64,000 bases of DNA from Thermomonas brevis (GTDB lineage: Bacteria > Pseudomonadota > Gammaproteobacteria > Xanthomonadales > Xanthomonadaceae), in the NCBI RefSeq assembly GCF_014395425.1, contig NZ_CP060711.1:1240001-1304000 (forward strand), in the 5' to 3' direction. Shown piece after piece: positions 25,080 to 33,383 of this stretch. The notes beneath the pieces were generated by a model. That model was not told where the DNA came from and searched no databases. It saw only the letters and a program-made list of their open reading frames with translations. Position numbers and translations under genes: made by a program. The number at the start of each line of letters is the position of its first letter. Positions within the stretch are counted from its first letter, which is position 1.

Positions 25080-25195
25080 CGTGCTCCTCCCCTTTGCGCG
25101 CAGCGCAAGGGGGAGGTTGGGAGGGGGTTGTTCTTGAGAAGCAAAAGCACCCCTCCCCAACCCTCCCCTTCGCCTGCGGCGAAAGGGAGGGAGTC
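25080..25195. repeat. Two G/C-rich REP-like stem-loops in inverted arrangement
   Basis: Stem-loop CTCCCCTTTGCGCG/CGCAAGGGGGAG (25086-25113) and stem-loop CTCCCCTTCGCC/GGCGAAAGGGAG (25163-25190), flanked inside by AGGTTGGGAGGGG and its complement CCCCTCCCCAACC. Such pairs are common between Xanthomonadaceae genes. It lies between the sigma operon 3' end and rsmC. Confidence 0.75.
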
Positions 25196-25201
25196 ATTCG
25201 C

Positions 25202-26211: not shown

Positions 26212-26218
26212 CCGGCAT

Positions 26219-26247
26219 GGGATACGCCGAGGGGCCGGAGGGTTGCA
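26219..26247 (-). promoter_or_regulatory. Probable ECF-type promoter of the sigma operon
   Basis: On the minus strand TGCAACC (26241-26247), 14-bp spacer, CGTATCCC (26219-26226). The start is expected within about 5-8 nt of the sigma ATG at 26211, i.e. nearly leaderless, consistent with the lack of a ribosome site. Identical to the divergent plus-strand copy. Confidence 0.75.
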
Positions 26248-26268
26248 ACGGATTTCGAAATAATCGAC

Positions 26269-26297
26269 TGCAACCGCCCGCCGCCCGGCCGTATCCC
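26269..26297 (+). promoter_or_regulatory. Probable ECF-type promoter of the DUF6249 gene
   Basis: TGCAACC (26269-26275), 14-bp spacer, CGTATCCC (26290-26297) on the plus strand, 46 bp before the ATG at 26344, whose AAGGAG ribosome site is at 26332-26337. Confidence 0.75.
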
Positions 26298-26343
26298 TTG
26301 CCCCGAACGGCCAGCACGGCCGCCCGACCCCAAGGAGACACCC

Positions 26344-27663: not shown

Positions 27664-28932
27664 TCAGGCGCAGGCGCAGGCGGCGGCGCGCGCCAGCAGC
27701 GTCTCGCGCTCGCGCGCATTGCCGGTCAGCGACGCCGCGCGAGCGAACTCGGCGCGCGCCTCGTCCAGCCGGCCCAGCTGCTGCAACAGGTCGCCGCGCA
27801 CCGCCGGCAGCGGCGCGTAGTCGCGCAGCTTCGCATCGACCGCGAGCGCGTCCACGATCGGCAGCGCCGACGCCGCGCCCTGCGCCCGCCCCACCGCGAC
27901 CGCGCGGTTGAGTTCGACCACCGGCGACGGCGCCACCCGCATCAGCCGCGCGTACAGCGCCGCGATCCCGGTCCAGTCGGTGTCCTCGAAGCGCAGCGCG
28001 CGCGCGTGGCAGGCCGCCAGCGCCGCCTGCAGCGCGTAGGCGCCGTCCGCACCGCCCAGCCGGCGCGCATGCTCCAGCGCCTGCAGGCCGCGCTGGATCT
28101 GCAGCCGGTCCCAGCGCGCGCGGTTCTGCTCGGCCAGCAGGATCGGTGCGCCGTCGGCCCGCGTGCGCGCGGGGATGCGCGAGGCCTGCAGCTCCATCAG
28201 CGCGAGCAAGCCGAACACTTCCGGCTCGCGCGGCAACAACCCGGCCAGCACCCGGCCCAGCCGCAGCGCCTCCTCGCACAGCGCCGGGCGCATCCAGTCC
28301 TCGCCGCTGGTGGCCGCATAGCCTTCGTTGAAGACGAGGTAGAGCACCTCCAGCACCGCATCGAGGCGCTCCGGCAGCTCCGCCTTGCGCGGCACCTCGA
28401 ACGGCACCCGCTTCTCGGCCAGCGTGCGCTTGGCGCGGACGATGCGCTGCGCCACCGTCGCCTCCTGCTGCAGGAAAGCGCGCGCGATCTCCGGCGTGGA
28501 CAGCCCGCCCAGCATGCGCAGGGTCAGCGCGACCCGCGACTCCATCGGCAGCGCCGGGTGGCAGCTGGCGAACAGCAGGCGCAACAGGTCGTCGCCGATG
28601 TCGTCGTCCGCGTAGCGCTGGGCATCGTCGCCTTGCATGTCGGCTCCGTGCAGCGTGAGTTCGATGCCGAATTCGTCCTGCTTGCGCGCATGCAGCAGGC
28701 GCTGGCGGACGTGGTCGATGCCCCGGTGCTTGGCCGCGGTCATCAGCCAGGCGGCCGGATTGTCCGGCACGCCTTCGCGCGGCCAGCGCTCCAGCGCGGC
28801 GAGCAGCACGTCCTGCGCCAGTTCCTCGGCGGTGTCGATGTTGCCGGTGATGCGGGCCAGCCGCGCCAGCAGCTTCGGCGATTCCATCCGCCACAGGGCG
28901 TCGAGACGGCGATGGAGGTCGTCGGCGTTCAT
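27664..28932 (-). CDS. ECF42-type sigma factor with C-terminal helical extension
   Basis: 422 aa, twice the usual ECF length. Region 2 (RITGNIDTAEELAQDVLLAA; PAAWLMTAAKHRGIDHVRQR) and region 4 (LRMLGGLSTPEIARAFLQQE) are followed by a ~230-residue DUF6596/TPR-like domain with VLEVLYLVFNEGYAATSGED and GADGAYALQAALAACHARA. This is the SigJ/ECF42 architecture, where the extension replaces an anti-sigma. Start ATG at 28932. It is the last gene of an operon after YCII and two VOC genes. Confidence 0.9.
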   Translation of the reverse strand: MNADDLHRRLDALWRMESPKLLARLARITGNIDTAEELAQDVLLAALERWPREGVPDNPAAWLMTAAKHRGIDHVRQRLLHARKQDEFGIELTLHGADMQGDDAQRYADDDIGDDLLRLLFASCHPALPMESRVALTLRMLGGLSTPEIARAFLQQEATVAQRIVRAKRTLAEKRVPFEVPRKAELPERLDAVLEVLYLVFNEGYAATSGEDWMRPALCEEALRLGRVLAGLLPREPEVFGLLALMELQASRIPARTRADGAPILLAEQNRARWDRLQIQRGLQALEHARRLGGADGAYALQAALAACHARALRFEDTDWTGIAALYARLMRVAPSPVVELNRAVAVGRAQGAASALPIVDALAVDAKLRDYAPLPAVRGDLLQQLGRLDEARAEFARAASLTGNARERETLLARAAACACA

Positions 28933-28977
28933 CCCGCCGATGACACCATCGCCCGCCCCCGCCACGCAAGCGGCCGC

Positions 28978-31822: not shown

Positions 31823-33231
31823 TCACCGCCCCAGCGGCATCCGCGCGGTGTAGTAATCGACCAGTCGCTCCACTTCCGGCGGATCGAGGTTGGCGAGGCC
31901 GATCACGATCTCGTCCTGCGCCGGAAAGAGTTCCAGCGCGCCGTTCATCCCTTCCGCACCGCCGCCGTGGCCGAAGCCGGCCACGCCCTGGCGCTCGCCG
32001 ACCATGAAGCCGTAGCCGTACCACGGTGTCTGCCGGCGCGTGGCCTCGGCCAGCAGCGCGGGCGGCAGCAGCTTGCCGGCGCGCAGCGCGCGAGCGAACT
32101 TCAGCAGGTCGGCCGCGGTGCTGTAGCCGCCGCCGGCCGCGGTGCCGCGGTGCCGCGGTATGGCAGGGTGCCGGCGGCGTCGATCCATTTGCCGTCCTTG
32201 CGCGTGTAGGCATGCGCGCGTCCAGGCACCTCGGCGTCCTCCGGCAGCGAACCGGTGTCGCGCATGCCGGCGGGCGCGAAGACGTGCTGCTCGACGTAGT
32301 CGTAGTACGACTGCCCGCTGACGTGCTCGATGATGTCGCCCAACAGCACGTAGCCGTAGTTCGAGTATTCGTAGCCCTTGCCCGGCGGCTGGGTCGGGCC
32401 GCGCGCCCCGTACAGGCGCACGTAGTCGTCATGGGTCTTCAGCGACAGCCGATGCTTGTCGAACTCGGGCCCGAAGATGTCGCCGGTGCCACCGGCGTGC
32501 GTCAGTAACTGGCGGATCATGACCTTGGCGATTTCCGCGTTCGGATAGCCCGGCAGGTACTGGCCGACGCTGCCGTCCAGCGACAGCTTGCCGGCATTCA
32601 CCAGTTGCAGCACGGCCACCGCGGTGAACATCTTGTCCATCGAACCAAGACGGAACCTGGTGTCCAGTGTCACCGGCGTGCCGGCGGCGCGATCCGCGAG
32701 CCCCCACGCGCGCTGCAGCAGCACCTCGTCGCCATGCGCGACCAGCAGCACGCCGGAAAACGCATCCTTCGCCGCGTCCGCGTCCGCCTTGGCGGCCAGC
32801 GCCGTGATCGCGCGCGCATGGTCCAATCGCGGAATGCGCAGGTCGGCGGGCCGTTCGATCGCCTCGATATCCAACGCCAGCGGCTTGCCCTCGCGCAGCG
32901 TCACCCGCGCGACGGTTTCCGATTCCGCCTCCTGCACCAGCGCGCGCGCCGATCCCGGCGCGGACGGCTCGCGCCGAAGCAGGCGGAAACCGCCGGTCTG
33001 GCCGTGGAAATCAAGCATGCCGTTCACGTCGAACGTGGGCAGATAGCGATCGCGGAACGCTTCCAGCCGCGCGTGATCGTTCGCGTTGAAGGCGTCGAGC
33101 CACGCGTCCAGCGCCTGTCGCGCGGGATCGCTGGCAGGCGCGATGGCCTGGGCTGCGGCAGGCGCCGTTGATTGAGCGTGCGCCGCCAGGGGTAGCAGCG
33201 CGGCGAGAAGCAAGGCGAAGCAACCGGCCAT
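31823..33231 (-). pseudogene. Serine hydrolase (beta-lactamase/class C type) broken by an 8-bp duplication
   Basis: A 460-residue-scale exported hydrolase is split over two frames. Frame 1 (33231 to ~32155) has signal peptide ...AAHAQS, active-site SxxK in RLGSMDKMFTAV, the YSNYG Tyr motif (YEYSNYGYVLL) and stops at 32101. Frame 2 contributes GGGYSTAADLLKFARALRAG and GHGGGAEGMNGALEL. An extra copy of the 8-bp unit (two tandem copies, 32139-32154) causes the shift; removing one restores a continuous protein. Broken copy of a family whose intact member lies at 40398. Confidence 0.88.
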
Positions 33232-33383
33232 GATGCGATTCCGGAGAAAGGTGCTTATCCGGATACGGTCGGCGCACGGCCGGTTGCATGCTTCTACTCC
33301 CGACGCACACCGGGTGGCACCACCCGATGCGCGCTTTCACGCCGAACGGCGCGACCGGCAAGCCGCGCTGCCGCGTTGCGCCG

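Follow-up and report, generated by a model that had tools for sequence, protein, structure and literature searches.

A conserved paired promoter motif between an ECF sigma operon and a DUF6249-like gene in Thermomonas brevis suggests an autoregulated, near-leaderless module

What do two identical promoter-like elements control when they stand between a sigma factor gene and a gene for a membrane protein? This arrangement occurs in a 64,000-nucleotide stretch of Thermomonas brevis DNA, which was analysed as a whole and is called the window here. TGCAACC-N14-CGTATCCC is found in it without mismatch once on each strand (Table 1). The two copies are separated by 21 bp, together cover 79 bp and lie back to back between the ECF sigma gene and the DUF6249-like gene. 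The initial annotation had located both copies correctly but described the promoters as flanking the two genes, whereas they are situated between them. An AAC core in the -35 element and a CGTA -10 element are common in ECF promoters, and autoregulation of ECF sigma factors is well known. Our reading, to which we assign a probability of about 80%, is that this intergenic region serves the autoregulatory control of an ECF sigma/anti-sigma operon, translationally coupled and with no leader or almost none, and of the divergent DUF6249 gene. Judged from sequence comparison, it is very probable that the sigma factor activates this ECF regulon, its own gene included.

Table 1. Features of the window that belong to the proposed module and its predicted regulon.
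Feature	Position	Strand	Evidence and remarks
Presumed anti-sigma factor, 148 aa	25202..25648	-	overlaps sigma stop by 4 nt (ATGA); helical model
ECF sigma factor, 188 aa	25645..26211	-	Pfam Sigma70_r2 and r4 over cut-off; TIGR02937; 80 orthologous loci
Sigma-side promoter (putative)	26219..26247	-	TGCAACC 26247-26241, CGTATC 26226-26221; conserved in 77/81 loci
DUF6249-side promoter (putative)	26269..26297	+	TGCAACC 26269-26275, CGTATC 26290-26295; motif before 67/79 DUF6249 genes
DUF6249-like membrane protein, 108 aa, three predicted helices	26344..26670	+	sub-threshold PF19762; homologue in 80/80 loci
PF00144 serine hydrolase, predicted regulon member	32101..33231	-	ATG 30 nt past CGTATC; PF00144 E 9e-53
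Third motif site	33260..33288	-	one mismatch to the 8-base -10 block of the initial annotation, which did not list this site; before the PF00144 serine hydrolase

The sigma protein matched Sigma70_r2 and Sigma70_r4_2 over their cut-offs and contains regions 2 and 4 only, as is characteristic of ECF (group 4) sigma factors. It scored 91.9 bits against TIGR02937 (cut-off 42.9), and the closest PDB chains are ECF sigmas. All scores against the listed equivalog models were under the respective cut-offs.

The paired motif exceeds chance. With up to 3 mismatches allowed, 4 matches were obtained in the window against 1.53 expected, and 4 were reached in 9 of 100 shuffles; the loose pattern is therefore not significant in the window, in contrast to the exact one. 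Across the genome to which the window belongs (3.4 Mb), the full pattern of the initial annotation returned 2 exact sites, both at the sigma/DUF6249 locus, 3 sites with one mismatch and 3 with two. Since these 8 sites compare with 5 for the reversed control, only close matches are meaningful. The two-mismatch sites (L006-L008), being at background level, were dropped. The trimmed motif TGCAACC-N14-CGTATC gave 5 sites against 0 reversed controls. A looser pattern, with a gap of 15-17 nt between GCAAC and CGTAT, was rejected, as it matched at 10 sites, 5 of them already covered by the strict motif, with 7 matches for the controls.

Is the motif kept where the sigma gene is kept? The ortholog set comprised the best 80 of 82 loci encoding sigma relatives, mostly from Lysobacterales. 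In the 300 bp 5' of the sigma gene in the 80 loci, both strands considered, the distance between GCAACC and CGTAT was 14 nt in 118 cases, and any other value from 6 to 24 nt was seen once. TGCAACC-N14-[CG]G[TC]ATC faced the sigma gene in 77 of 81 loci (the 80 and the window), a count that is not one of independent cases, as the species are related. The pattern had been expected to precede orthologous sigma genes, and it does so with a constant spacer. The remaining loci are L041, L056, L065 and L095, the last of which carries TGCAACC-N14-CGTCTC with an ATG at 10 nt.

We next compared motif and sigma over 149 genomes of the family, which contained TGCAACC-N14-CGTATC at 112 sites (12 controls). 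Where the sigma gene was present, defined as a match at E <= 1e-50, the motif was found in 47 of 56 genomes (104 sites, 5 controls); where it was absent, in 7 of 93 (8 sites, 7 controls), which is the background level. This co-occurrence corresponds to a Fisher p of 4.6e-22 with kinship ignored. Those inspected among the 9 sigma-bearing genomes that lack the exact motif mostly show drifted forms of the -10 block. A shared two-block motif that precedes the sigma gene and its presumed targets and tracks the sigma across genomes is the pattern expected of an autoregulated ECF promoter.

Twenty further loci with a more diverged sigma or no exact motif, plus some already-known cases, were also inspected. 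These belong partly to the same species as the first set; L188 reads like L047, and L187 like L056. TGCAACC was present within 130 nt in 16, and 15 of these 16 retained an ATG at 8-11 nt, with the -10 block drifted in most (TGTATC, GGTATC, GGTCTC and others). No TGCAACC was found within 130 nt of three homologues at 42-44% identity (L178-L180). Note that three genomes of one genus, each without a close sigma match, share a motif site (L133 in G004, and sites in G056 and G084); this may be a chance match in a conserved gene.

The suggestion that the -35 sequence is uncommon was not upheld, as GCAACC -35 sequences are among the S. coelicolor sigma-E promoters listed in the accessible part of PMC6767563. 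GCAAC is absent from the main text of the ECF promoter model paper PMC3817407, in which the logos are given in figures.

The unexpected result, and the most important point of the initial annotation, concerns the start codon that follows the sigma-side promoter. In the window, the sigma ATG (26211) is 9 nt past CGTATC, which leaves no space for a Shine-Dalgarno sequence. All 77 sigma-side promoters have an ATG (76) or GTG (1, in L086) 8-12 nt past the -10 hexamer, at a distance of 9 nt in 45, 10 in 24, 11 in 4, 8 in 3 and 12 in 1. A start codon in this interval was found in 0 of 64 DUF6249-side promoters and, in the same loci, after 12 of 210 CGTATC hexamers elsewhere. On the sigma side, the codon shares the sigma frame in 62 of the 77 and precedes the beginning of the tblastn match by 0 to 30 residues. 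These data agree, across the loci, with the suggestion that the mRNA would be almost leaderless. In S. meliloti, every mapped leaderless start was AUG, and non-AUG starts were called inefficient, in the portion of PMC3616915 at hand; the GTG of L086 is odd for this reason. Locus L186 has the motif with only a TTG at the place of the start codon.

How long might the sigma leader be? At the S. meliloti ECF promoter SMc01149, the transcription start was mapped by two methods 8 nt after CGTC, according to excerpts of PMC6180224. By comparison, the sigma leader would measure 2-6 nt, and 3-4 nt in most loci, but not zero. DUF6249-side promoters contain a conserved tract with purines at 9-10 nt, the place that the AUG occupies on the sigma side; if these purines mark the start of transcription, the leader would be zero. 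Either predicted length leaves no space for a Shine-Dalgarno sequence. One M23 peptidase gene (G099, L142:201-1379, +) likewise has its ATG 9 nt past the hexamer, and the near-leaderless layout is thus not wholly limited to the sigma gene.

In 15 of the 77 loci, the conserved start codon is out of frame with sigma and opens a minicistron. Its TGA overlaps the in-frame sigma start by 4 nt in all 15 (ATGA, GTGA or TTGA). The minicistron is exactly six codons long in 13 of these loci and fifteen codons in L077 and L079; L181, one of the further loci, has its own six-codon minicistron with ATGA. In a rapidly built tree of sigma protein sequences, trimmed near the conserved start of the domain, the minicistron label requires 9 changes, or 8 without the four motif-lacking loci, and at least 4 are forced by well-supported branches. 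By eye, several minicistrons of the MTGE type contain GGTGA, a possible weak Shine-Dalgarno sequence for the sigma start, and the need for coupling would therefore be less there.

A second overlap follows at the end of the sigma gene. In 79 of 79 loci the start of the next gene and the sigma stop share 4 nt; L037, in which no such gene was found and which ends about 60 nt after the match, is outside this number. Overlaps of the kind that marks translational coupling are thus present in 79/79 sigma/anti-sigma pairs and 15/15 minicistron/sigma pairs, and the operon would be both leaderless or near-leaderless and translationally coupled.

The product of this next gene is presumed to be an anti-sigma factor. 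It adjoins sigma with a 4-nt overlap, and its model (pLDDT 87) consists of two short helices and, C-terminal to them, two long ones that are hydrophobic by eye, a layout that fits membrane-bound anti-sigma factors. A W-x-x-Q-E motif is conserved near the N-terminus. The protein varies fast, with a mean column identity of 31% (window and 60 of 79 sequences), compared with 62% for the DUF6249-like protein (window and 44 of 79). It had no Pfam match at E <= 0.1 and no Foldseek match in the PDB at E <= 0.001, and the best PDB profile match was transketolase at E 0.12. With neither profile nor fold of an anti-sigma factor, the proposed role rests on position, overlap and architecture. Just past the end of the gene, at 25080-25200, two facing inverted repeats rich in CTCCC/GGGAG were noticed by eye, perhaps a terminator or a repeated element.

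On the other side of the intergenic region, the DUF6249-like ATG (26344) is 48 nt past CGTATC and preceded by AAGGAGA. The family label, given initially without qualification, needs some: the window protein scored 25.7 bits against PF19762, under the curated cut-off of 33, while all 45 aligned relatives matched at E <= 0.01 (best 1.9e-9). The model of the protein (pLDDT 81) had no PDB match at E <= 0.001. Because neither this fold nor that of the anti-sigma candidate matched at this threshold, the folds argue for no function. The gene is present in all 80 loci, on the strand opposite to sigma in 78; in L041 and L065 it shares the strand of sigma and lies upstream. The motif was found within 160 nt of 67 of the 79 DUF6249 genes with a settable start (L082 was left out), in agreement with the second copy having been assigned to this gene. 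Its distance to the start is 32-94 nt, except in L093 (1 nt), where the chosen start is probably wrong. In L041, the motif is 34 nt 5' of the DUF6249-like gene that lies upstream of sigma. Of the 79 genes, 38 agree with a crude Shine-Dalgarno pattern, and a clear Shine-Dalgarno sequence is therefore not universal among them.

A class-wide scan of 229 genomes yielded 7 DUF6249 matches in 6 genomes, 4 of them over the cut-off. An ECF-like sigma was encoded within the flanking 1.5 kb of 6 of the 7, the window's own included. Among the five pairs outside the genome of the window, the ECF gene is downstream on the same strand in four and divergent in one. Inspection by eye of the DUF6249 genes outside the order revealed no AAC...CGTA-like string of the TGCAACC-motif form. 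A literature search on DUF6249 returned nothing related; the present association gives the family a link to ECF signalling.

A genome search for the regulon had been proposed as a check. The motif was found at sigma and DUF6249 as anticipated, but the predicted regulon is wider than this module. The 5 sites in the genome of the window precede sigma, DUF6249, two PF00144 serine hydrolases and one M23 peptidase. Sigma-bearing genomes hold 27 exact sites besides those of sigma and DUF6249, and 26 were inspected, three of them in the window's genome. A plausible gene, with frame and start chosen by hand, begins no more than 60 nt away at 20 of the 26, and the distance is usually close to 30 nt. 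From the sigma-less genomes, 5 of 8 motif sites were inspected and one product was profiled, a PF00144 hydrolase 122 nt away (L134). Pfam searches with 20 predicted products, L134 included, identified PF00144 in 8, M23 in 4 and alpha/beta hydrolase or S33 in 3; M61, GNAT and HlyD occurred once each, and 2 had no match. The recurring theme is enzymes with apparent signal peptides, mostly hydrolases and peptidases. The regulon is thus predicted to extend past the module to secreted-type hydrolases. The precise motif allows this small regulon to be read in related genomes. Note that the PF00144 frame of the window covers profile positions 10-216 of 329 and ends early in the domain. A frame at 31823-32188 (-) looks by eye like the remainder, and the gene (31823-33231, -) may therefore have been broken in two by a frameshift or an error in the sequence.

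From the motif, its spacing and conservation, the position of the start codon and the overlaps, all of which were compared directly across loci, we infer the following sequence of events. The freed sigma would recognise TGCAACC-N14-CGTATC and transcribe its own operon, the DUF6249 gene and a few secreted-type hydrolase genes. The sigma-side transcript would begin at the AUG or no more than a few nt from it, making the mRNA leaderless or nearly so, and ribosomes would load on this 5'-terminal AUG. In most genomes it would be the sigma start itself; in some it would open a minicistron, usually of six codons, with a stop overlapping the sigma start. The presumed anti-sigma would be translated across the second 4-nt overlap, and we propose that one 5'-terminal start therefore sets the levels of both proteins.

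Could the short distance between promoter and sigma gene be mere compactness? The locus would then be an ordinary autoregulated ECF module, its minicistrons untranslated and its protein derived chiefly from some other promoter or start upstream. ECF systems are indeed often autoregulated and often have divergent targets, as exemplified by S. meliloti RpoE7 in excerpts of PMC6180224. However, compactness explains neither why all 15 loci with the sigma start elsewhere keep a start codon at 8-12 nt nor why this holds for none of the 64 DUF6249-side promoters of the same intergenic regions, and we regard this account as unlikely.

It is quite improbable, in our judgement, that another ECF sigma in the cell acts on the motif, with the present sigma as a target instead of the activator. 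The genomes do carry several ECF genes, and weaker second sigma matches occur in some, but the motif follows this sigma over the 149 genomes (the test above, with kinship ignored) and the strongest motif sites are at its own gene. Two mirror-oriented copies within 79 bp could also be taken for an operator bound by a DNA-binding regulator. We rejected this explanation and leave it the slightest of chances: each copy consists of two blocks with a constant 14-nt spacer and faces a gene in fixed orientation, the AAC and CGTA blocks are of ECF type, and single copies elsewhere are about 30 nt 5' of genes.

The autoregulatory reading can be taken a step further, though here we are tentative and would not expect to be right in most such cases. 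The circuit may be a feedback loop gated through one 5'-terminal AUG, with selection keeping the leaderless start and not the sigma N-terminus. Output of sigma and the presumed anti-sigma would then depend on ribosome state, such as the availability of 70S particles or the levels of initiation factors, instead of on Shine-Dalgarno initiation. Upon frame drift, a six-codon minicistron with an ATGA overlap would replace the direct start. If this is true, the ECF loop joins an envelope signal with a translational-state signal.

No paper describing the module was found by title or abstract in a search largely without subscription journals. The sections of PMC6180224 available to us present S. meliloti RpoE7 as similar in that sigma activates its own promoter and divergent genes and has its anti-sigma downstream; sigma and motif differ, and no 5'-terminal start codon or minicistron is described in these sections. 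Two related cases are documented in the excerpted text of PMC4921905: M. tuberculosis sigEp1 yields a leaderless ECF mRNA tied to WhiB7, and S. coelicolor SigR' is an N-terminally extended form made from its own SigR-dependent promoter. The operon as proposed here would resemble them in a leaderless ECF transcript and an N-terminal length set by the transcription start. They differ in coming from Actinobacteria; moreover, sigEp1 is not linked to self-activation, and a minicistron is not mentioned in that text.

Functional 5'-terminal uAUGs have been reported in E. coli, where, in the part of PMC4965119 consulted, they open a short ORF and are able to recruit ribosomes and to influence the cistron that follows. 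These uAUGs are on SD-bearing mRNAs, whereas the present case is a conserved start that belongs to a single ECF operon and comes with a 4-nt overlap. ATGA-type overlaps between neighbouring genes are familiar from translational coupling (PMC6728339, excerpt); in contrast, in 15 of the present loci a minicistron-sigma overlap is followed by that of sigma and anti-sigma. According to portions of a review on leaderless translation (PMC9031893), the 70S ribosome binds a 5'-terminal or nearly terminal AUG, little is understood of how this is regulated, and the MazF model was not reproduced. Added here to the known leaderless ECF mRNA (M. tuberculosis sigE) and the E. coli uAUGs is a strictly kept start codon, presumed to be 5'-terminal, with minicistron variants. 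If true, a conserved ECF operon of Gammaproteobacteria that is leaderless or nearly so, and in which frame changes have repeatedly given rise to minicistrons of constant length overlapping the sigma start, would be a natural mutational series on the purpose of leaderless translation.

A second ECF-like sigma is encoded in the window at 27664-28965 (-). This protein of 433 aa has a long C-terminal part, and its neighbours appear by eye to be of the glyoxalase and YCII types, a layout like that of S. meliloti RpoE10, group ECF42, as given in the available text of PMC6180224.
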